Origin: Labia minor
Lineage: Eukaryota > Arthropoda > Insecta > Dermaptera > Spongiphoridae
Assembly: GCA_963082975.1 (NCBI GenBank)
Contig: OY720344.1
Coordinates: 1,612,001-1,676,000 of the forward strand
Reading direction: 5' to 3'
DNA length: 64,000 nt
Below, one piece after another: positions 431 to 59,800 of this stretch. Under the pieces are notes generated by a model that saw only the letters and a list, made by a program, of their open reading frames with translations, did no database searches and was not told the origin of the DNA. Each line of letters opens with the position of its first letter. Position 1 is the stretch's first letter. Position numbers and translations under genes: made by a program.

Positions 431-972
431 TTACTATCTTCACCAGTTTTGAAGGTTCCTGAATCATTTTCACTAAAGTTGAAAAAAAAATGTCTCTCTC
501 TGTGTGTGTATGTGTGTATGTGTGTAGACAAGATTACTCAAAAACAGTTTGAGCTAGAATCATGAAATTTGTTAAAATTTGTTACATGGGCATTATTCAA
601 AATTTGTAGTTTTTCTAACAACTTTTGAGAAATTAGCTCAACCGGAAGAGGGTCATTACCTACCACGTTTTGATTTTTTTTTCCTCTAAAGTGACCGTAA
701 AAATAAAGATATAGGTTTGATAATTTTTCACATGATTCAAAATTGTATAAAACTGCTATATATAGAATTACGGCCTGATTGAATCGCTGAAAGTACCGGA
801 ATTAATTTTTTAACACTGCAAATCTCATGCGCCAACACGTGACGTTGTGACATCAACAAATATTATTTATAATTTTAATTTATGATTTAATTTTAATTAA
901 ATTTAATTTATAAATATGTTAATTAATCCAATTCAAATTTGCGAGATAGTCGAGTGGAGACACTCCAACTTT
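431..972 (+). repeat. Repeat family A, copy 1
   Basis: This copy reads in the same direction as the copy at 49966-50574. Shared landmarks in order are a stretch ending in GGTTCCTGAATCATTTTCAC, a TG-rich run, GTAGACAAGATTAC, the block GGAAGAGGGTCATTA, a CTATATATAG tract, GCGCCAACACGTGA and the terminal GCGAGATAGTCGAGTGGAGA. No ORF of note lies inside. Family A occurs at six sites in this window in both orientations, so it is an interspersed non-coding element. Its class is not recognised. The ends carry a short inverted match (TATCTCGC and GCGAGATA), which would fit a non-autonomous DNA element. Confidence 0.8.
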
Positions 973-3107: not shown

Positions 3108-4142
3108 AGCTGGAGTGTCTCCACTCGACTATCTCGCAATTTGAATTGGAATAAATAACATTATAAATTAAAATTAATAAATAATATTTATTAAATCAGC
3201 GCATGTTTGGCTGACTTTGTTGATGGCACCACGTCACGTAGCAGTTTTATACAATTTTGAATCATGTGAAAAACTATCAAACATTCCGTGTATCTTTATT
3301 ATACACTTTTACTTAACTCACTCTGTCCGGTTGTACGCAGGTTGTCCGGTTGAACGTTGTCCGCGGCATTTTATAATCGATATTTCAACAACTTCCCGAC
3401 ATTCAATCAACTTGAAATTTTGCATACGCGCTTGCTCCTGCTAATAATACACGAATCAATTGAAAAATCCACTGAATTATTTATCTATTAGTGGTAATTA
3501 ATTAACTAAACTTTCATATGCGGAAGATGGAATAGTTCACTATTTCAATCATAGATGGCGATCTAGAGGCGCTGAATACGACTAAAAAGTATAAAATCAA
3601 TTTAAGTAAAAAGAAATCTTTTTAAAAAATACACTTTACTTAAAAATTGCACTAAAAAGTAAAAAATAAAATCCCTTTAAAGTGTGTGCGCTCAAATTAT
3701 AATAAGACCGTAAAACATTTGCTTCCATTTGGTGTTATTATAATTTGAGCGCACACACTTTAAAGGGATTTTATTTTTTACTTTTTAGTGCAATTTTAAG
3801 TAAAGTGTATTTTTTAAAAAGATTTCTTTTTACTTAAATTTTTTTTACGGTCACTTTAGAGGAAAACAAACCAAAACGTTGTAGGTAATGACCCTCTTCC
3901 TGTTGAGCTACATTTCTCAAAAGTGGATAGAAAACTACGAATGAATTGAATTGAATAATGCCCGTATACCAAATTTCATTATTCTAGCTCAAACCATTTT
4001 GACGTAATCTTGTCTACACACTCACACACACACACACACAGAGACATTTTTTCTCAACCTTAGTGAAAATGATTCAGGAACATTCAAAACGTATAAAAAC
4101 ATCAAAATCTCGACATCGAAAATGTTCGTGATCGCAATAGTA
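3108..4142 (-). repeat. Repeat family A, copy 2, interrupted
   Basis: The inverted orientation starts with GGAGTGTCTCCACTCGACTA and ends near GTGATCGCAATAG. The element is split: family sequence stops near 3300 (ATCTTTATT) and resumes near 3842 (ACGGTCACTTTAGAGG). In the copy at 8606 these two sequences adjoin. The 540 bp between are a later insertion. Confidence 0.8.
3301..3841. mobile_element. Insertion with near-perfect palindrome nested in family A
   Basis: The second half is a hairpin: arm 3599-3705 and arm 3735-3840 are reverse complements over about 105 bp, with a 29-bp loop. Landmarks are TTTAAGTAAAAAGAAATC, CACTTTACTTAAAAATTGC and AAGTGTGTGCGCTCAAATT. The first half (3301-3598) is unique in this window and slightly GC-richer. 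A foldback element or MITE fits; no transposase is visible. Confidence 0.75.
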
Positions 4143-15866: not shown

Positions 15867-16035
15867 ATTAAAAAAAATAAAACAATTCAATTTAATAATA
15901 TAATTTAAAATTTTATTCCTATTTTGAAAAATTGAAAGTAATTAGAAAATAGAATTGTAATATATTTATATATATAAGATATGATATATATATACCTACT
16001 ATACTATTGTGAAATTTAAAATTTAATATAAACTT
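14780..16035. other. AT-rich intergenic DNA
   Basis: A poly-T tract lies at about 15832-15860. No gene recognised. The end adjoins the 3' side of N6AMT1, so part may be its 3' UTR. Confidence 0.6.
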
Positions 16036-16683
16036 TTACCTATTAAATCGTAAAATGTGGAGATGTTCACCACGAACTTTCCTATCTAAAACTAATGTCA
16101 TTTTTAACTGTTGTAACTTGAAAATTTGCTCAATTTCATCAAGTTGATTTTCTTTTACTGTCACAAGATAAAATACTCCCTTAGAAGATAAAAGTGGTCC
16201 AATTTTAGGAAAGAGACGATCCATCACTTCTCGGCCTTTTTTTCCTCCTGCCCATGTCTTGTATAGATGTGATGAAATGAAGGATGAATCCTGAGCAGTA
16301 ATTTCAGAGCTCTCCGTAGGATGATAGGGAGGATTGAAAATAATCACATCAAATTGATTCCGCTCTTGTAAGACAGAAACCAAATCCATATTTATAAGTG
16401 CGACAGAAGCAATATTAATTTGAGATGTTCGTTTAGTTGCATCACAAGCATAAGGATTGATATCAGATGCGACACAGTGAGCTCGAGAACCAAGGACCTT
16501 GTTCAAGGCGGTAATTACTGCTCCTGAACCACATCCAATTTCTAAACACAGAGAAGGTTCAACCGTTTTGATCCAAGAAATGTCCTTTTCCAAAGCATCT
16601 AACAATAAAAAGGTATCCTCAGCTGGATCGTAAACGTGTTCCAAGTCCTCTGTGGTGAGGTGATCAAGGATTGGCGTTTCCAT
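16036..16683 (-). CDS. N6AMT1: eRF1 glutamine methyltransferase catalytic subunit (HemK2/N6AMT1)
   Basis: This is a single uninterrupted ORF of 215 aa; human N6AMT1 is about the same length. It is a SAM-dependent methyltransferase that in animals and yeast pairs with TRMT112 and methylates the GGQ glutamine of release factor eRF1; a histone H4 lysine activity is also reported. Visible motifs are the N-terminal YDPAEDTFLLLDAL (about 18-31), the SAM-binding EIGCGSG (48-54), acidic SDIN (73-76) and the substrate-binding NPPY (117-120), all intact. The ATG is chosen because the family start aligns there. Its A is also the last base of the stop codon of the upstream SNAPIN frame (TAATG), and there is no room for a separate promoter. 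Co-transcription with SNAPIN is therefore inferred. Confidence 0.95.
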   Translation of the reverse strand: METPILDHLTTEDLEHVYDPAEDTFLLLDALEKDISWIKTVEPSLCLEIGCGSGAVITALNKVLGSRAHCVASDINPYACDATKRTSQINIASVALINMDLVSVLQERNQFDVIIFNPPYHPTESSEITAQDSSFISSHLYKTWAGGKKGREVMDRLFPKIGPLLSSKGVFYLVTVKENQLDEIEQIFKLQQLKMTLVLDRKVRGEHLHILRFNR

Positions 16684-17818
16684 TACGTGTCTTCGGATGT
16701 GCCTTGAGTAGACACGACGGCTGTTGCTGAGGTAGAAGGCTCTATTAAAGCCTTTCGGCGGGACGATTCTTTTTCAATAGATTGATGTACCTTGTTAAGT
16801 CGATCCTTAAAATTAATCAAGTATCCTTAATTATTATCTATTATTAAATAAATAAATAAATAAATAAATAATGTCGAGTAGAGTAGAGTATGGTGAATAG
16901 TTTCAATATGATATCTTCATGGTCAAAATCAGTTTAACACAAATCATAATCAATTATATAAATATAATAACCTTGAATCATGTTTTTTAATTATTTAAAA
17001 TTTTTGAATTTACAGTGCCAAAAATTTTTTAACAATTTTAATATTTTTTTTAACTTATTAACAAATTTGAGTGATAATAAGAAACATTAAAATTTGAACA
17101 AATTATCAAAAATAAAAAAATAATTGAAACCCAACATTAGTTTGTGTAAATATTTCAAATTATAATTAAAAATTTTCATTTATGTAAAAAACTGTATGCA
17201 AAAAAGTATTTTCATGCAATCCGTAAATATTATGAGTTCCCCACATTAAGAAGATTTACATCCAATACGGAGTTAATTTCAACATTATATTAAATTAAGT
17301 TTAAATATTAATAGGATTTCAATTGTTTCAAAATAATATAATACCTGAGCAGTTTGCAAGATGTTACTGACGACTGTAACTTTTAATTTAGCATTTAATA
17401 ATTTTGTAACATAGACATCCAAGTCTAAAGGACACTTTTGGTTTTCAGATATTTTTTTTAATTCTTCTGTAAGTCCCTCAATTTGTTGTTTTAATTCAAC
17501 TTGACTTATTCTAAAAATACAAGTCAATAAATATATATACATATGAATAACGTATAGTTCGAGAACTTTATTTATAATGGGTTTTAAAAATATAAAAAAA
17601 TATTCTTAAATTATATAGAATAGAATATAGAAGGTTTCTATTTAATATATTATAAATTTTGAATACCTCGTTGCCTTAACTCTTTCATCTAGTTGATCTA
17701 TAGTAGGTTTCAAAAGACACATAAGTCCTTCTGCCAAAGTATCCCGAGTCGGATTCTCTACAAAGTCTTCAGTTTTATCATCAAATGAAGTAGTAGTGCT
17801 TTCTGTATCGAGTTCCAT
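16683..17818 (-). CDS. SNAPIN: SNARE-associated protein Snapin (BLOC-1 subunit), 3 exons
   Basis: Exons are 17667-17818, 17345-17510 and 16683-16805, giving 146 aa (human 136). Snapin is a small coiled-coil subunit of BLOC-1 and BORC that works in lysosome-related organelle biogenesis, endosome positioning and synaptic vesicle priming. The core is clear: RDTLAEGLMCLLKPTIDQLD (about 25-44), SQVELKQQIEGL, then LDVYVTKLLNAK and VSNILQTAQ, continuing in the last exon with DRLNKVHQSIEKESSRRKAL. The N-terminal 20 residues are acidic and unconserved. Donor and acceptor sites are GT/AG and frames join. The third exon is too short for simple ORF calling and ends in TAATG, overlapping the N6AMT1 start by one base. 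Confidence 0.92.
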
Positions 17819-18621: not shown

Positions 18622-18870
18622 TTAAATATCACAAAACCTACCATCTTGATTTATATTCAAGGGTATCTTTGCACGAATTAATTTCTTCTTTTCAGGTGTG
18701 TAGAAATCATAATCATTAAAATGAAGTTTGCATACACGATATTTTAGCAGACTATTATACTTATTATTATTATTATTATTATTATACTCATTGGCAACTA
18801 GAACAAGTGTCCTCGTTCTTCTCCAGGTAGAGAATTTGTAACACAATTCTTATGAATACAATCTAAAAAC
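18622..18870 (-). pseudogene. THAP-like zinc-finger fragment
   Basis: The minus strand encodes CKLHFNDYDF followed by LIRAKIPLNI. This fits the second half of a THAP domain (C-x2-H-F ... A-x-P). A nearby frame, after a possible TTGCAG acceptor, gives DCIHKNCVTN, which could supply the first zinc pair. The frames are joined only across an (AAT)n expansion that inserts a poly-Asn run, and a conserved Trp between the halves is not clear. THAP domains occur in host genes and in P-element-type transposases. Function cannot be assigned; it may be a dead transposase exon or a diverged gene fragment. Confidence 0.3.
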
Positions 18871-21735: not shown

Positions 21736-22292
21736 TTAATGAGCTTCTGCTGCTAGTACAATAGCTTGACATGTTTCAACTGCAATTTCAGCTTCTGCTT
21801 TTGCAGTAGGATCTTGAGAAGATTCTAATTGTCTCGTTGCTGCAGAGAGTGCTTCTCTTGCTGCTCCAAGATCAATATTTTCGACAGGACATGCTTCCTC
21901 TGCCAAAACTTGTACACTTGAATCATCATTAATGCTTACAATTCCACTTGAGACAAATACTTTTGTTTCACTTCCATCTTCATTAAAAACTCTAACAACT
22001 CCCGGCTTTAAAACAGCCAGAGTAGGAACATGGTTTGGTAAAATACCGAATGCTCCGCTAAATGTAGGTACATCTACTTGATTTACACCTTTTTTATCAT
22101 AAAAAACCTAAAATAAATAATAAATATATAAAATTAAATCAATAAAAGTAAATGGGTGGAATTTACCTGATTTGCGGCTGCTAATGTCAAGGGCATTTTA
22201 GGACCATCTGCATATGTCCTTATTGAAGTTTTATTGAGCACATTTTTTGAAGTAAATCTCAAAATAGGATGAATTGATCTTAAGGCGGACAT
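21736..22292 (-). CDS. ATP5F1D: ATP synthase F1 subunit delta, mitochondrial, 2 exons
   Basis: Exons are 22167-22292 and 21736-22107, giving 165 aa (human precursor 168). The subunit is part of the central stalk of mitochondrial ATP synthase, corresponding to bacterial epsilon, and binds gamma and the c-ring. The first exon encodes a basic, serine-rich presequence (MSALRSIHPILRF...) ending near TSIRTYADGPKMPLTLAAAN. The second begins VFYDKKGVNQVDVPTFSGAFG, the beta-sandwich core, with FGILPNHVPTLAVLKPGVV, and ends in a two-helix hairpin rich in Ala, Glu and Gln. The intron is 59 bp. The start faces TRAPPC3 across 576 bp, a possible shared promoter region. Confidence 0.93.
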
Positions 22293-22868: not shown

Positions 22869-24953
22869 ATGTCCCGCCCTGGGTCTAGATTGGATCCAAA
22901 GAAAGTAGTAAGTTTGCTTTTTATCAAACATTGTTTACAAATAAAATTACATTTCAACCAAATAGGACTTGAAATATTAATAAAAAATAAAATAAAATAA
23001 AATTTTACTTTGGAATTATATTTTGGTATTAGAACAATATTCTTATTACTTATACACCTATTCAATTCCATACATTAAACTTAATAAATATTCACAAAAA
23101 TTCCTCAATATATATATTTATATAGATTTAGTTTATTTAGCTATTTGGGAAATTTTTTGTAAAATTGTTAACTCATGTTAATTTGTTTTGATTTTATTTT
23201 ATATTTAGACTATAAAGAGATATATATTTAAATATAATAATTCAATATTTTGTAAGTGAGGAGTAGCAGAGGTCCATGTTATATACCCATTAATGGAACT
23301 GCATGCTATTTATGTATTTACAAACGAAATTTGTTTGTAAAAAGACTAATTGGAAAGACAAAGAGAGATGTGAGCGAATTTAAAGAGAATATGAATTGAG
23401 TGAAGCAAACTTAGAAATGTGAATAGAGTAGGTTGGAAAAGAATAAAGAATATTCGAGTTCAGTAGCGCCAGAGAAATAATAATAATATAATATTTTGTT
23501 GTATCAATTTTAGAAATTATTCTTTATTTTGTAGAATTCTGAATTATTTACATTGACCTATGGGGCATTGGTTTCACAATTACTTAAAGATTTCGAAAAT
23601 TGTGAAGATGTTAACAAGAATCTGGAACGTATGGGTTATAACATAGGTATAAGACTTATCGAAGATTTTTTGGCTAGAACAAATTCCGGAAGATGCTATG
23701 ATTTCAGAGATACAGCTGAAAAAATTCAGGTAATAATTATAGGATTATTTTATAATCTATTGAAATTTTAATTAATTCACTTCAATTTAATGATTTTTTT
23801 TTATTTTAATCACATTTATTATAATTATTATATCATGTTTTGTTAATATTATTATTGTTTAATTGTTTCTAATACTTTTTAATATTTTTAGTTGGGCTTT
23901 CGAATGTTTTTAGGAGTTAATCCTACAATAACAAATTGGAATTCTTCCGGCGATGAATTTTCTCTACAATTTGAAACAAATCCCTTGACAGAATTTGTTG
24001 AACTTCCTGACAGTTGTCTTACATTAAAATATTCAAATATTTTAGCAGGTGTGATTAGAGGAGCCTGTGAAATGGTATTTTTATTCCATTCATTAAGAAT
24101 TTTCAAATTTTTAACATTAAAGTAGTAGCGTACTGTAGTAGCGTATTAATTTGAATAAGGAAGAGGTTGGGGGGGTTCTAACCGAGACAAAAAGTGTTAA
24201 CTTCTTTTCCAGTCACAACCAAATTCATACATATATAAATCAACATATAAATGGCAATGCTAGTAAAGATTTATGATATAATCTGGTGAATTTTAGTCAT
24301 AAATATATATTTAAGAGCATTTCAGGAAAGGACTTGCTAAAATTTGTTAATTTGGGGAATAGGAAGAAAAACGCCTAAAAATTCAAAATTCAAAAAAAAA
24401 GTCTTTGGTTGGTTATACATTTTTGTTATACATCGGAAATACTAGTGTCCGAATAAGTGATTGTCTAGTTTGTTTAAAGATATATTAAATATTTTTGTAT
24501 CTCTTCATTACTTAATCAAAATTTAGTGCAGAATTCTACCGTACACTCAGCATTGGTTACTATTTACTATGGGCAAAGATATCAGTTAAATATATTGTTA
24601 CACTGTAGAAATCTATCAAACAAATAAATAACTCTTCTGAAAAAACAATTGTTCCAAACTTTAAAAATATAATTAGCATTATTATCATTATATCCTTGAA
24701 TTTTTTTAAAAAAATTTATTAAACAGTACTCTTACAAAGCAACACTTGAAAATGAAAATATAACAAAAAAATGGGAAAAAGTATTACTAATTTGAATATT
24801 TTATAGATATAAATTACTTATTAATTTTTGCAGGTTCAAATGGAAGTAACATCCTGGTTTGTCCAAGATCAATTAAAAGGTGATAACGTTACTGAATTGA
24901 GAGTAAAATTTATTAAAAAATTAGAAGATGCAATACCTGCCGGAGAAGATTAA
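22869..24953 (+). CDS. TRAPPC3: TRAPP complex subunit 3 (Bet3), 4 exons
   Basis: Exons are 22869-22907, 23535-23729, 23892-24074 and 24834-24953, giving 178 aa (human 180). Bet3 is a core subunit of the TRAPP tethering complexes, which act as Rab1/Ypt1 exchange factors at the cis-Golgi. The family is recognised by SELFTLTYGALVSQLLKDFE at the start of exon 2, IGIRLIEDFLART, RCYDFRDTAEKIQ, FRMFLGVNPTITNW, FVELPDSCLTLKYSN and the end VTELRVKFIKKLEDAIPAGE. The cysteine in RCYDF corresponds to the palmitoylated cysteine of Bet3. The 13-residue first exon, MSRPGSRLDPKKV, parallels the human N-terminus. The last intron is 759 bp with no recognised element. Confidence 0.95.
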
Positions 24954-30802: not shown

Positions 30803-33492
30803 TCATTTAATAAATAAACAATTGATTCCGAAACATGATTTGAGTCTTTTTAAAATATTATTATAAGCAACTATTGCATTTGACTTTAAATTATTTATTA
30901 TGTTTCTTGTTTGATATTGATCTTTTATTAAATCATAGGCTTCATATGTAATCTAGAAATATATAAAAATAAATTTCTTTCTAAATTTCGCTGTTGTTTA
31001 ATAAAATTGAATTAATTTTAAGACCATAGGAAACAATATTTCAATAACTTACATTATTTCCCTCAAATTTGCAGAAAATAAAATTTTCTTGTTTAGATAA
31101 TTTTCTTAAACAAATAAACGTATTATTTTTAGAATCTTGACATTTACATAGTGCATTACGAGTACATTGCTATAAATTAAAAAAAAAAAATAATAAAACA
31201 GTAATTATATTTACTATTATTATATATATACAACATAATTATAACAATTTATTATATTTTACCGCAAGATTAATAGAATCTGTGTAATTGCAAAATTGAT
31301 CCACAGATTTGAAATTTGCCTCTCCTTGATATTCAATAAGAAATGTTCTATCAGAAAGTGGATTTTTGTACTGAAGTATTTCTTTTGCCCAACTTTTACC
31401 ATCAACTTCATAAGCCAATTCTGATCTGGTGGCTAATTCATAAATGGTTGGCAAAAGATCAATATTTAATACTGGGAATGTAAATGTATGATTTTTTGGA
31501 ATTCCAGGCCCTCGAATCAGCAAAGGAATTCGAATGTCGGTCTCATATGGCTGTCGTTTATCCCATGGTAAACCAAATTGGCCAATATGATATCCATGAT
31601 CAGAGGTAAAGAGAATATAAGTGCTATCTAGTAAATTATATTTCGTTAATGTCTTTATACATTCCTCAACAAGATCATCAACGGAGAGTAAAGTTTGCCA
31701 GCGTTTTCGGTATATTTCATTTAAGGTTGGTATGAAAGATTCAGGCAATGGATTGGGTTCTTGGCTTAATAGCCAATGTCTATTCTATATAAAAAAATTG
31801 TAAAATAATATAAAAGAATAATATTATAAATATAAAATTTACCTTTGATTTTATATTAAAGTTTGGTGTAAGAGGAATCGAAATATTTTTAAAATATTTT
31901 TTGTATTTATCTTTTGCAATAAATGGGGCATGGGGTGCGGGGACTGAGTACACCATTAAAAAATTTTTCTTTTTATTTCTATTTCTTAGAAATTCATTTC
32001 CATAACTCTTCTATAATAAAAAATACATTAGTCACGAATTACATTCTAATAAGCATAATTGTCTTGAGACAATATGTAAAAAAGTACTGAAATTTATTTA
32101 TTTAATTTACTAAATATAGAGTTTTTCTATTATCGAATAAATAAGTTTATGTCTCAATCATAACATTGAAAGAGTTTACAAATATCAAATTAATACTCTG
32201 TGAAAACATGAGTTGAACTTTTCTTAATACTTACAATTTTATCTGTTAGGTAATCATTCACAAAAAAAGATTTACTACCGTTTATCGAAAGGGTGTAATT
32301 ATAATATTTGGAATTCCCTTTAAGACCAATCCACCAGTCCCATCCGGGTGGAATATGTTTAACACCACCTGCTAATTTATCTCCATACTAAAAAATGTAT
32401 TTATCATATTTAATACGTGTATTTAATTATCATTTCAAGAAAAGTGTTTATTATAATTTTTATAATATTTTTGTAAATATTAATGTACTTGGTTGATTTT
32501 TCAATTAGAATTTAAATTGATGAAATATAAAAAACACTAATTATTTAAATTAAAAAAATAATTAATAATAATATTAATGCAAGTTATAATTATTATTAAA
32601 TATGTGTGTAGTTCTATTTTCATAGGTACCTGGTTTAAATATTTTCCACTATAAAATGTTTGATAATCATTATTTTTAAAAAAATTACCAATTGTGAAAT
32701 GTTCATAATTATTTTGCCAGTTTCTATTATTGCAACCGCCTTCCAAAGAATTATTAAATGTTTTATGATTGTGCATATATTTTCCAGTAAGTATTGAAGC
32801 CCGGCTTGGACAACAAATGGGAGTTGTTACAAACTAATAAAAATTTTTTAAAAAATTAGTAGTAATAATTTATTTAATAATATTATTATGAAACAAGATA
32901 TTTTCCTTCAATTTGATTTATCAAGTGTGTAAACATCTTTATCAACAAAATTGTGTTAAAAATTAGAAAAAGAAACAACGGGTGGAATGTTTAGAATAAT
33001 ATTATAAAAAAAAAGGTTTTTGGGTGTGGCTTAAATGTTAACAAAGTTTTAATTTTGATATTTCTATAATAATTACATGGCAAAAAATTAATAATAATAA
33101 TAATATGAATATAAGTAATAAGAAAATAAAATCACACCCATTGTAAAGTTTTTTTGACAGATTGAGAGAGAAAAAAAGAAATATATCTTAACATTTGAAA
33201 CAGCAATATAAAATACTTACTGCATTTTTAAAAGTAGAGCCATGGTCTGCTATTAAATTTCTGGTCTTATTCAATAAAGTCTAAAAATTTCTTATTAATA
33301 TAAGTTAAATAAACAATTACTATTTTCATTATCATTATAATAATTTTATTTCAAAATTAATAAAATTGATAATAATAAACTTACAAGACCATTTAAGAAA
33401 TAATCTTGGTCATCCGTAAGTATAATTACAAAATTACTATTTTCTGAAAGAGCTTGATTGAAATATAGAAAAATAAAGAAAAATAACTTCAT
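30803..33492 (-). CDS. GNS: N-acetylglucosamine-6-sulfatase, lysosomal, 8 exons
   Basis: Exons are 33385-33492, 33221-33280, 32630-32833, 32235-32387, 31843-32010, 31263-31784, 31053-31169 and 30803-30952, giving 493 aa (human 552). GNS removes 6-sulfate from N-acetylglucosamine residues of heparan and keratan sulfate in the lysosome. A signal peptide (MKLFFFIFLYFNQALS) leads into the metal-binding TDDQD (26-30). CCPSR (63-67) is the sulfatase signature whose first Cys is converted to formylglycine, followed by LTGKYMHNH. Family-specific blocks include SKYYNYTLSINGS, APHAPF, RKRWQTLLSVDDLVE, TSDHGYHIGQFGLPWDKRQ and LIEYQGEANF. The Cys-rich region near the C-terminus (CTRNALCKCQ) is shortened. 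The stop lies 68 bp from the TIMM50 stop, so the 3' UTRs probably overlap. Confidence 0.95.
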
Positions 33493-44423: not shown

Positions 44424-45296
44424 TATTGCTATAAAAATTATTGTTAATTAAATGGATTATTTTTTATGGAAATTATATTTATTTAAGCTTTAATACAGTA
44501 TCATTTATATTAATATTACAACATATTTAAGAATAAAAATTACATTTAAAAACTCGCAAAGGTGATTCCATTTGTTTGCTCATTAGTGTATATACAATTT
44601 TTGGGAGTATAATAAGATAAGATAATGTAAGATAAAATCAAGGCTATGATGGACAATGCAAATGATTCGAAAAAGTGGGGGGAGGGCTAACTGGAGGTTA
44701 AATCTCATATGGTGATGGAGGAATTGATTTCTAGAAAACTGTCACTATTATTAATCCTTTAAGATTAGGATCACACACATCCAGTTTGATGGTAGAAAAT
44801 TTTTGTTGAACAAATCTTGGCCTATTAAGGATAGGTGAAAGTTAAGTATGTTTTAAGCTAAACCTGTAAGGCTGAGAGCCTTAATTTTTGTTTTCAAGAC
44901 AAATGTTTTAATTAAACTATCAGGTCAATGCTTAAGGGGAGGTAATAGCAGTTTCCCAGTATGATGCAATTCAAGGGTTGGTCTGTGATCTTTCATAACT
45001 TTCAAGTTAATTGAATTTTTTTTGTCAATGAAAAAAGATTAATTATTGGAGGACAAAAAACTTGAGAAACATTTGATATTAAAAAAAAAAAAAATATTAA
45101 AAGAGGTTATAAATTCAAAAAGATTTATTAGGAAAATTACATTACTAAATTATAACAAAATTTAATATACTCCTTTTGTTTAATTAATGTTTTAAAAAAT
45201 AATATAATATAAAATATTCGATATATATAAATATCTATTTATAATAGTGTACAAATCATATAAATATGATAAAGTTTTAAATATATATTTTTTCAA
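44424..45296. other. Intergenic DNA, one less AT-rich patch
   Basis: About 44620-45000 is richer in G than its flanks and has no open frame of note. It may be an old repeat; no partner copy is in the window. Confidence 0.45.
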
Positions 45297-49194: not shown

Positions 49195-49680
49195 ATCTCT
49201 GTGGCTCTACGGAACTCGAAAGTTCTTGGCCGCAGCAACCACACTTCTCCAAGTATCCCTATTCTGAGCCACAAGCCTCCAATCCCTATTCTCTCCCATC
49301 TCTCTCCCGTCCCTTCCTACATTATCCACCCACCGTGTCCTTGGTCTTCCAAGCGGGTATTTCCCACTCGGTCTCCCCCCAATATATTTTTCGCCATTCT
49401 TTCCTCTCCTATTCTAGCCACGTGTCCTGCCCACCGCAGCCTTCTCGATTTGATAATTCTAACTATATCTGGAGATGCATAGAGGTCATGTAATTCCTTG
49501 TTTAAGCAGTCTCCGCCATTCCCCGGTGACCTCCTCTTTCTTTGGCCCATAAATGCTTCGCAGAATCCTATTCTTAAATACTCTAAATCTACTCTCGTCA
49601 CCTATGGTCATAGACCATGCCTCACACCCATATAATACAACCGGTTTTGATAAATCTACAAATGCATATTAGAGATCCAA
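49195..49680 (-). pseudogene. LINE ORF2 C-terminal part with frameshifts
   Basis: Minus-strand blocks in order are KPVVLYGCEAWSMT, LRSIYGPKKEE, then after a frame change NKELHDLYASPDIVRIIKSR, RLRWAGHVARIGEERMAKNI, and after a second frame change KYPLGRPRTRWVDNV to a stop. This is the region after RT in Jockey/CR1-like non-LTR elements of arthropods. It ends in a GATA microsatellite tail (CTATCTAT at about 49182-49199 on the plus strand), the usual 3' end. 5'-truncated and inactive. Confidence 0.85.
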
Positions 49681-50781: not shown

Positions 50782-52920
50782 ATGGAACGCAATGTCACAT
50801 TAGAAACAGTAAGTGAAGACTGTCATTCGGATCATTACATCTACTTAATGGAGAGCTAAGATTTCACAATGGCCACTCTATTTACAAATATTATTTTCAC
50901 TCTATTCGTCGTATTACTATCCTTTTAATTGAATGATAAAGAAAGTCTATATATAATATCTTTTTCAAGTGTATTTATTTAAATTTTATATTCCAATTAA
51001 CAATTCGTGATATATGTTAAAATTTTCAAATTTTTTTATAAAAAACAAAAAAAAAAAAAAAAAAAAAATAAATAAAACAGCTGTTTGATTGTAATCACAA
51101 AATAACATTCTAATTGTTAATTTACTTTGATTTATTTCTAATGGCATACATTTAATCCATTACAAATTGTAATTATATTTGATATCATTCAATACAAATA
51201 TATAATATCTTTATTTTTTTTTTCCCACTTATTTTACTAATTGTTAGGAAAAAATTAAATTGCATTTTATTCTGCCAGGCTATAACACCAGTGGAAGAGG
51301 TTGGACAGCACCCTCCTGCATCATCTGTTCCTCCTATATCAGCACTTCAAGCTTCTCCAGCACATAATATTTTAAGTTTAACAGTTCTTTTACCACCAAA
51401 TGACAATTCACCTATGATGGAATCAGGGCGAAATCTTGGATTACATTCCACAGCTTGCTCAGTTGATAATTCAGCCGGAGCCGCTGCAATATTTGATCAT
51501 CAAATGGTAAAATAGATGCTTATTTATTTATAAACATAATTTACTCCTATAAAGGGAATGATTATAATTGATGTTGGTAATAAAAAGAAAAGAAATTTGG
51601 AATATTTTAATATATTTCATTCAGTGCATTCGAAAGAGCAGATCGAGTTTAGTAAAAGTGTCTGAGCTGTGTTTATGAATTAATTGTAAATTTATTTATT
51701 TATTATTCCTTACAGTAATAGAACGTATACAGAAATTAAAAATATCAATAAATTCTGTTAATTTTCAGAATGATTTAGATGAATTGCCACCACCAAAGGC
51801 AGATCTCTCTGCTCCCCCTCCATATGAAATTGCGACTAAACTCCCCACTTATGAAGAAGTACAAAGGGAGAAAACACTTCATGGTGAACCAACTCCTGGA
51901 GTTGGTGTCTCCAATCCTGGGCCAGGTCGCCTACCACCACCTCTTGCATTTCTAGCCATTGATGCTGAAAACCCGGATGCTGATGCTGAAACTGGTTTAC
52001 TAGGGACAGATTTTATGTTTTTCACTGCATTTTTGGGTTAGTAAATATTTTTTTTCTAAAGTTAATCTATAAATATAATAATTAGCCATTTATAAATAAA
52101 GAACCTGGACTTAATTTTGAATTCAATTTTTACAGTTGCTTTTCTTTTTAATTGGATTGGTTTTCTGCTTCTAATGTGCTTCTGCCATACAATTGCTGCA
52201 CGATACGGAGCCCTTTCTGGATTCGGATTATCTCTTGCTAAATGGACCCTTATAGTCAAACATTCTACAGACCTTGCCTCTCGTGAAAACAGTTGGCTCT
52301 GGTGGCTCATAATGGCATTCGGTAATTTTAACTATCACTTATTTAGAATAACACTTTCGTGAAAATAAATCTCCTCAACCACTAAGCACTCTTATAAAAA
52401 TATTATTATTAATATTTCCCTTCTCTACCGAACGCATAATTTAAAAAGTAATGAATCAATTTCCTTGCTGATGCTTGATATTGATATCAATTTAAAGGTA
52501 ATTAAATAAGCTTTGAAAATATATACATCTTATAAATATCGGTTTAGCATTTTAAAAAAAAATTAAGACTATATGCGCGCTTAGAGGTTGAATTGATTTA
52601 CCTTCTTTTTTTTAAACTACCAAATATATATTTATAAATATTTATAAATATAATTATGAATTTACATTTTAAAATTTTATCTCAAATTTTCTTTTTGTTA
52701 CTTATTCTTTAGTCTATATTTTTATATAGATTTATAATATATTGCTCTTATTTAAAACAATTTAATAATTTATAACTTCGTTAAACAAGTAAAATAATAA
52801 ATAAAATTTGTTTCAGGATTACTTATATGTGTGCGAGCCATCATCCAATATTTAAATATCAAACGCGGATGGCGACTTTTAAGTGGTTCTGCCCAGGAAA
52901 GGCTGCTGTTCTTCTATTAG
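50782..52920 (+). CDS. NEDD4-family-interacting protein (NDFIP1/2-like), 5 exons
   Basis: Exons are 50782-50808, 51279-51506, 51769-52036, 52136-52321 and 52817-52920, giving 270 aa (human NDFIP1 221, NDFIP2 336). Ndfip proteins sit in Golgi and endosome membranes and recruit and activate HECT E3 ligases of the NEDD4 family through PY motifs facing the cytosol. PPPY (101-104) and LPTY (110-113) are visible. After TGLLGTDFMFF come hydrophobic segments: TAFLVAFLFNWIGFLLLMCF, then a loop RYGALSGFGLSLAKWTLIVK, then WLWWLIMAFGLLICVRAIIQ. The C-terminus QERLLFFY corresponds to RVLFIY of human NDFIP1. The third PY motif of vertebrate proteins is not seen. The 9-residue first exon is inferred from the in-phase donor and is the least certain part. 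Confidence 0.93.
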
Positions 52921-56313: not shown

Positions 56314-56868
56314 GTACAATTTCCCATTCATTCATTAGTTTACCTTTTATTAATTTTATTATTGGTCTAATCACTTGAAATTTACAATTATGCGTTTTAA
56401 AATTCGAAATAATAAGAAAATTAAAAAAAAATAAATAAATAATAAAATCATTCTGATTAAACATTACAAATAAACATTGACAGATTATAGTTTAAAATCA
56501 AATATTCAAAATATAAAATAAACTTTACACTTAAATTGTGAGATATATCATCAATATTTCCTATATATTTTATCTATTTTTGTCTATGAAAGTCTATGAA
56601 TTGTTTAATTGTTTAATTAAAAATATGATTCTTAAACTAATTAAAACTTTTTCTAAAATAATGACTAATTATTAACATCTGAACTTAATATTTTTTTTTT
56701 TAAATTTTTTATTATAGAAGATATTGTTTTTTAATCAGCAATCTTATTTAATGTATTATTCGATTATAGTATTAATAAAATAATATAATAATTTTAAATA
56801 AATAATTCACCCTCTATTAAGTTGAATTGTACATATTATAGGATGTGTCTTTGTTGATCTTCTTGATA

Positions 56869-59800
56869 ATGGATGAATGGACATTGAATGATCTCCTTGA
56901 GTGTTCGGTTTGTCTTGAACGCTTAGACACCTCCAGCAAAGTTCTACCATGTCAGCATACCTTTTGTCGTAAATGTTTGGAAGAGATTGTAAGCACTCAT
57001 CGAGAATTAAGATGTCCAGAATGTCGGGTCCTTGTGGACTCGAAAATCGACGAGCTGCCACCAAATGTACTATTGATGAGAATTTTGGAAGGAATGCGCA
57101 ATGCGGCCCCTCGTAAAAGAGCTGCCACAGCACCTTCTTCCACTACAACTAATAGTCAGTCGTCAACAGTTACTCATGCACGAAGAGATCTTCAATCGGC
57201 AGCGGCGGCGACGGGAGGCGGTTCTTTAGGGCCTCCAACCGTCGCCGCCGCGGCATCTCATCCTAAACACACCCCACCTCCTAATCAACCGTACGCCCGT
57301 GCTATTTATGATTATCTCTCCAATGAACCTGGGTAAGCAATTTTTATTTTAAAAAAAAAAATGCCAAATTTCTTTCTTTCACATTTTCACTTTCATTTAT
57401 TCCAAAAATAATTGTATTATGATAATTAAATTTACCTTAAAACACAAAAATTCTATATTGATAAAAATAAAATTTCTACTATTCTGGAATGAATGTTATT
57501 TTATTTTTATTTCTATTTATTTAAACTATTTAATTGAAATAATGTTATCTCACGATTTGTTATTTGAACCTTTTTCTTTTTAGGGATCTTCGTTTCAAAA
57601 AGGGTGATATAATTCTACTTCGGAAAAAATATGATACAAATTGGTGCCAAGGGGAGACTGCAGGTCAGCATGGAATTTTTCCACTTGCATATGTTCAGGT
57701 AATATTTGAGTAATTTAATGATATTAAATACATTTAAATACATTCTCTATCTCTATAAAGATGACCACTTTTCTTTTTTCTTTTTTAAGGTTATCATACC
57801 ATTACCTAATCAAATTCCTCAATGTACGGCGCAATATGATTTCCGAATGTCCACTGAGGAAGAAGAAGGCTGCTTAACATTCAATAAAGTAATTTTTATC
57901 CTTTGTTTTGGAATTTAATGAATTTTAATAATTTTTATTTTAGGGGGAAGTTATTACGGTTATTAGAAGAGTGGATGAAAATTGGGCAGAGGGCAAATTG
58001 GCTGATAGAATCGGTATTTTCCCTTTGGCATTTGTAGAACTTAACAGCGTGGCCCGAGCATTAATGAAATTATCTTCAAAGTAAGAGACTTTTAATCTAA
58101 CCAATTTCAATTGTAAAAAAAAATGTATACTTCATTTTAAAAGTTTCAATCATTTATTTTATTTATGATTGTATTTGATTTTTTTTTATATAGTTCTCAA
58201 CCAGGTCCAAGTAGAGTAGCTCCTCCTACCCCCACCTCAGAGGATACCACTCCTTTAATACCTACCTCAACAACAGCTGTATCTGTATGTTCTGATCATC
58301 ATCCATCCAGAAGCTCTACTATTTCTGCAGCGGCTCCTCAACAACCGACTCCATCTACATGTGTTATTGCTCAGTCAGATTCCAGTTCTACTGTTTCTTC
58401 AGGTGTGAAAATTTAAAACAGACTATTAAATCATTCCTAATTCAAAAATCAATTAAAAAGATAATATTTTAATACATTTATCATTATACTACATATTCAG
58501 GGACTAAATATATTAACAATATAATAATATAACAATAACAATATATTATATTAGAGTACAAGTTTTTAAAATTCATTCATTAGGCAAATACTTTCTATAG
58601 GTTAATTTTATTATTATTTAAATTGCAAAAGAAAAGATAAATTGCTAAAATTCATTTTTTTAAAATTTCTTAAACATTTAAATTACTTTCAATAGATAAT
58701 TGTTAATTTTTGTAAATTAGTAAACGAAAATATTCTTAAAACGGAAGTTAAGTCCGGTCAATTGTTTCGACTTCCTGTTTCACTGTTGTTTCAACATAAT
58801 TTTTGAATAATTTTAACGCCATACAATTAAGTAATGAAATTCCATTATCATTTGTTTTCATTATCACTTTATTTTCTTCATATATCAGTACAGTGAATGC
58901 TCTATATAAGCAACTCAATTGAACCAATTTCAATAAAAAAGTTTCTTATTGGGAAAAGTTGCTTATAGGTACAAATTGTATTTAAAGCACAGAAATTTTA
59001 ATTAATTTATTAATTAATTAACAGAAATTTACTTCAATACTGGCAGCACAAAACAAAACATATTTCAATATCAGTTTTTTTACAATTTGAGGTTATGTTT
59101 TTGTGAACAGCTGACAACTCAAATATTTATTTAGCTTTAAAAAATATAAGTTGCTTATACAGAACAGTTGAACTAAAAAAAGCTGTTTATATAGAGCGTT
59201 TTACTGTATTTAGAAAATAGATTTTGAATAAAATTGAATTAAAAATTATTTGCGAATTTTTTAAAAAATTAAAACATAATTCTCCGATCTATTCATTTTG
59301 AATTCAATCAATATTTAAATTATTTAATTACAATAAATTGGAATATCAAAGTTGCTGACTCAAAGAACGCAGTGTGGTGTATGCCTGCAGGCTCTTCGTC
59401 TACAACGACTCCAAATACATCTTCAAGTAATACATCTTCATCATCAAGTACTGCTCCAAGTTCACCTACATCCCCTCCTCCTCCACGTCCTACTACATCA
59501 TCAGTCAGTAGCGGAAAACGTCAGCATAGTATAAATGCTGGGAATCAACAGCAAAGGTACCTCTTTTTTGGAGTAAAATGAAATAATTAATTATTAAAAT
59601 TGTTTATTAACACATCCTAAGCGGGTCACTTCAGTACAAAAATTAAAATTATTTATATAAACCGGCATTTTACATACACATTATCATTAAATTAGGCTTT
59701 ACGTAAAATTGCCATATCTTTTCAAATATTAAATATTTTTCAATGAAACGTTCAGGGTCTTACATTAAAATTAGTTCTTTATTCATTTATTTATATTCAT

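Follow-up and report, generated by a model that had tools for sequence, protein, structure and literature searches.

SNAPIN and N6AMT1 meet in a one-base stop–start overlap at a probable copy of the known dicistronic snapin–CG9960 gene

The 2002 annotation of Drosophila (Misra et al. 2002) already counted the pair formed by snapin (CG9958) and CG9960 as dicistronic, according to a survey published in 2008 that dealt with conserved upstream frames (PMC2276209). The survey gives Ka/Ks values of 0.02 for the upstream frame and 0.07 for the downstream frame, indicating purifying selection on both; the most distant transcript it names as joining the two is an EST from Daphnia magna. FlyBase release 6.04 holds 159 dicistronic pairs, with monocistronic forms of both genes at 45 of these loci and of one gene at 69, and the gap from stop to start ranges from -34 to 319 nt where transcripts are polycistronic only (PMC4528330). 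Reporter mutants of Drosophila stoned and Snapin indicated leaky scanning, and the upstream frames of these two loci are described as deficient in internal AUGs, with start contexts that are off consensus (PMC11892635). In-frame AUGs in a first cistron have been reported to attenuate the second (PMC3372440).

A second route to a downstream protein is coupled termination–reinitiation, for which UAAUG is among the usual layouts (PMC5972666). That source describes influenza B segment 7, in which about 10% of terminating ribosomes restart, and states that the viral type of coupling uses a UGGGA core. It also describes coupled restart in five cellular transcripts that lack any TURBS-like sequence, but presumes that restart after long cellular frames is very rare.

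We analysed a window of 64,000 nucleotides, the whole stretch of DNA considered here, in which the two protein families lie on the minus strand with the following features.

17667–17818, minus strand: SNAPIN coding exon 1, with its ATG at 17818–17816 (splice sites and protein similarity)
17345–17510, minus strand: SNAPIN exon 2, with GT..AG introns on either side
16806–17344, minus strand: SNAPIN intron 2, with 10 ATGs, the last starting at 16920; a possible site for a private N6AMT1 promoter
16683–16805, minus strand: SNAPIN exon 3, with its stop TAA at 16685–16683 and no AUG ahead of the N6AMT1 start
16681–16685, minus strand: TAATG stop–start overlap (sequence read directly)
16036–16683, minus strand: N6AMT1/HemK2 coding region, a single exon of 215 amino acids plus stop (TIGR00537 and human N6AMT1 match)
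16022–16027, minus strand: ATTAAA, the first AATAAA or ATTAAA hexamer past the N6AMT1 stop, beginning 9 bases past the end of that stop

The SNAPIN splice sites were placed from the sequence and from protein similarity; the model has two introns with GT...AG borders, 156 and 539 bases long, and a product of 146 amino acids. This product covers all of the Pfam profile Snapin_Pallidin (PF14712, positions 1–89 of 89) with an E-value of 1.2e-25 and a score of 90.2 bits (cut-off 29.6). The downstream product passes the HemK2/MTQ2 model TIGR00537 (99.6 bits, cut-off 87) and matches human N6AMT1 (PDB 6khs, E = 4.5e-42) over residues 3–214, including the NPPY and GREVMDR stretches. Other NCBIfam models, which were made for prokaryotes, score at most 109.6 bits on it, each under its own cut-off. 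Both frames are thus complete, and the product of each passes a family cut-off. Pattern searches gave 71 matches for SNAPIN in a prokaryote contig collection and two for N6AMT1 among viral contigs, none of which was confirmed as a relative; the single phage match of N6AMT1 (28.6% identity, to an unannotated record) is uninformative. SNAPIN exon 3 is 45.5% G+C, compared with 28.9% for exon 2 and 18.6% for the intron that separates the two exons.

Several other features were recognized in the window. An exon of the ATP synthase delta/epsilon chain lies at 21736–22107 on the minus strand (PF02823, E = 2.2e-19), sulfatase exons at 31239–32833 on the minus strand (PF00884, E = 7.5e-19 for the scanned frame 31239–31784) and NEDD4/Bsd2 (NDFIP-like) exons at 51679–52362 on the plus strand (PF10176, E = 8e-20 for the scanned frame 52096–52362). 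Exons of a TRAPP component, presumably TRAPPC3-like, occupy 23535–24125 on the plus strand (PF04051, E = 3.2e-18 for the scanned frame 23535–23771), and a RING finger exon that we take to resemble POSH/SH3RF occupies 56842–57336 on the same strand (RING PF00097, E = 3.6e-10). An open frame at 18622–18849 on the minus strand contains a CKLHF...KKKLIRAKIP stretch, which we assume to be THAP-like; it has no Pfam match at 0.001. Another, at 49317–49601 on the minus strand, contains RRLRWAGHVAR, in our judgement typical of the polymerase end of a non-LTR retrotransposon. The open frames at 538–801 (minus strand) and 3181–3444 (plus strand) have VLYNFESCEKLSN in common and are perhaps copies of one mobile element. 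Rfam reports a tRNA at 44860–44926 on the minus strand (35.1 bits, gathering threshold 29), whereas ARAGORN finds none in the window.

The two reading frames meet exactly. TAATG, read at 16685–16681 on the minus strand, contains the SNAPIN stop and the N6AMT1 start, and the last A of the SNAPIN TAA (16685–16683) is the first base of the N6AMT1 ATG (16683–16681). The overlap described in the earlier note is therefore confirmed, with both frames intact. TAATG is not a rare pentamer in the AT-rich window, where it occurs 255 times (mean in shuffled sequences, 304.7), so the overlap takes its weight only from the two real frames that meet there. A frameshift fusion back through SNAPIN was considered and rejected, because, within exon 3, the N6AMT1 frame is closed by stops a short way upstream of 16773.

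The closest counterpart is the Drosophila pair, in which a single transcript encodes the two proteins in this order and both frames are conserved (PMC2276209). The earlier note had thought the pairing unusual, a view that is not supported, as snapin–CG9960 had already been named dicistronic in that survey. The one-base overlap falls within the -34 to 319 nt range of the fly loci with polycistronic transcripts only. Among the matches listed in our search of the literature on the pair or on UAAUG, the exact overlap is not reported for SNAPIN/N6AMT1. The Drosophila sloth1/sloth2 locus resembles this one in its nearly touching frames (5 nt apart in sloth); its first start is the weaker one, and there leaky scanning has reporter data. 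The sloth products, however, are proposed to be paralogues acting together (PMC9681215), whereas SNAPIN, a factor in lysosome traffic, and N6AMT1, which modifies a factor of translation termination, belong to unrelated families.

The arrangement of AUGs departs from that of the fly locus. The first cistron of Drosophila snapin (134 amino acids) is deficient in internal AUGs, as far as it is described in PMC11892635, whereas the predicted mRNA here has six between the SNAPIN AUG and the N6AMT1 AUG. Each has a pyrimidine (T or C) at -3. One, at codon 33, is in the SNAPIN frame, the other five are in the +1 frame and none shares the frame of N6AMT1. The short frames that those five open end after 3, 5, 7, 7 and 8 codons, and the last of these AUGs lies 172 nt ahead of the N6AMT1 AUG. 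The context of the AUG at codon 33 is weak, with C at -3 and T at +4. In leaky-scanning dicistrons of the stoned and Snapin type, the first cistron would be expected to be free of in-frame internal AUGs; because the AUG at codon 33 departs from this fly rule, we do not claim that pattern here, only that leaky scanning is the probable mode at this locus. Within the N6AMT1 coding region there are 10 internal AUGs, half of them with a purine at -3.

We found no support for selection on the layout itself, as synonymous shuffles often produce such arrangements. Among 10,000 synonymous-codon shuffles of SNAPIN, 41.8% contained at least six internal AUGs (mean, 5.27), 30% lacked a purine at -3 of any internal AUG and all had a tail of at least 172 nt. 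Nevertheless, the layout as it stands would let scanning ribosomes pass, either directly or after short frames.

By the rule established for vertebrates, G at -3 together with G at +4 makes a fairly strong start. Both true starts, of SNAPIN and of N6AMT1, have this combination, which at the SNAPIN AUG would limit skipping by ribosomes. Compared with CAAAATG, an optimal start in flies (PMC9681215), the SNAPIN context TGTC agrees at none of the four positions preceding the ATG and the N6AMT1 context CGTA at two; the SNAPIN start, TGTCATGG, thus has nothing in common with the fly CAAA, yet both -3 and +4 are G. Upstream of the SNAPIN ATG are two more ATGs, at distances of 123 nt (G at -3, opening 27 codons) and 51 nt (A at -3, opening 3 codons); if they are within the leader, they would complicate any scanning model.

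We consider it probable (roughly 0.8) that this locus is the local copy of the dicistronic SNAPIN–HemK2 (snapin–CG9960) gene known from Pancrustacea. Two intact proteins on the same strand, their one-base overlap and the layout of AUGs are observed directly. That one shared mRNA carries both frames is highly likely, given the orthologous pair in Drosophila and Daphnia; dicistrony, as proposed in the earlier note, is accordingly the best reading of the locus, although the mRNA is drawn from orthology. If the mRNA is shared, then leaky scanning, with or without reinitiation after short frames, would be the favoured mode of translation, by analogy with the fly locus; the earlier note had not listed this mode. 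A single promoter upstream of SNAPIN would give one mRNA with a common 3' end past N6AMT1, and most ribosomes would translate SNAPIN. Some would bypass the SNAPIN start codon, the context of which is only moderate; these ribosomes would skip the weak internal AUGs, or translate the tiny frames and then resume scanning, and would initiate at the N6AMT1 AUG.

The absence of AATAAA and ATTAAA from SNAPIN exon 3 and the N6AMT1 coding region, with the first such hexamer just past N6AMT1, is compatible with a shared 3' end. The same absence occurs in 36% of Markov sequences, however, and we therefore dropped it as evidence for one.

The main rival to leaky scanning is coupled restart. As in influenza B segment 7 and SART1, ribosomes would end SNAPIN at the UAA, and a fraction of them would begin again at the AUG that overlaps it. 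If the mRNA is shared, this mode is a possibility of secondary rank, and as an account of the locus overall we regard it as unlikely. The UAAUG overlap is exact, and the pentamer is identical to that of influenza B segment 7 and, going by a reference title in PMC5972666, to that of the silkworm retrotransposon SART1. However, the viral UGGGA core is missing: neither UGGGA nor GGGA or UGGG occurs in SNAPIN exon 3 up to the ATG. Folding is not unusual either, with a z-score of -0.82 for exon 3 and of -0.63, relative to shuffled sequences, for the 100 nt that follow the A of the AUG, the only downstream length folded; for SART1, downstream structure has been reported (PMC5972666). The presumed rarity of restart after long cellular frames also argues against this mode. 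Termination–reinitiation as raised in the earlier note thus keeps its UAAUG layout and loses the viral element, although the cellular cases do not always depend on UGGGA, and these cases are why coupled restart stays a rival.

Coupled restart might have one further consequence. According to PMC10804810, N6AMT1/HEMK2 methylates the termination factor eRF1. Should translation of N6AMT1 in this lineage require restart at the SNAPIN UAAUG, the amount made would be tied to termination at that stop, and the gene might serve as a feedback sensor of termination. We regard this idea as highly speculative; the sequence allows it, with no positive sign beyond the overlap.

Alternatively, a promoter located within SNAPIN, in intron 2 or exon 3, could produce a monocistronic N6AMT1 mRNA in which the N6AMT1 AUG comes first. 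Exon 3 has no AUG ahead of N6AMT1, and transcription starting below 16918 would give an AUG-free leader; monocistronic forms are also well represented at the FlyBase dicistronic loci (PMC4528330), as noted above. However, exon 3 is free of AUGs in all of the synonymous shuffles, so this property follows from the protein sequence, and a separate promoter would leave the joined Daphnia EST (PMC2276209) unexplained. We consider such a promoter improbable as the source of N6AMT1.

Least probable of the three, and very doubtful here, is an operon whose polycistronic precursor would be split into two mRNAs, the second of which has a leader spliced on at the exon 3 acceptor or at an AG near the ATG: no spliced-leader RNA was detected in the window by Rfam at the gathering threshold, which returned one tRNA only (a weak point, as such genes may lie elsewhere), AATAAA and ATTAAA are absent between SNAPIN and N6AMT1, and the sources cited here for the Drosophila pair do not invoke a spliced leader. 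On the other side, calanoid copepods have spliced leaders and sequences like them occur in sea-louse cDNAs (PMC4664967), and splicing of a leader to 16805 would leave N6AMT1 with a 5' leader free of AUGs. The 12 AGs between 16900 and the N6AMT1 ATG have pyrimidine fractions of 0.40–0.65, and those ending at 16727 (0.65) and 16703 (0.60) exceed the predicted exon 3 acceptor at 16806; as that acceptor itself reaches only 0.50, the measure cannot discriminate leader acceptors.

Knowledge of the SNAPIN–HemK2 pair as such is unchanged, as its dicistronic nature had already been described. The window contributes two things, an exact overlap of stop and start as UAAUG and more internal AUGs in the first cistron than the fly rule would lead one to expect. 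With its one-base overlap and six internal AUGs, the locus offers a natural contrast to the fly locus for how the second protein arises. It would be a clean example of a dicistronic animal gene and, if the window is pancrustacean, one that has persisted for a very long time.
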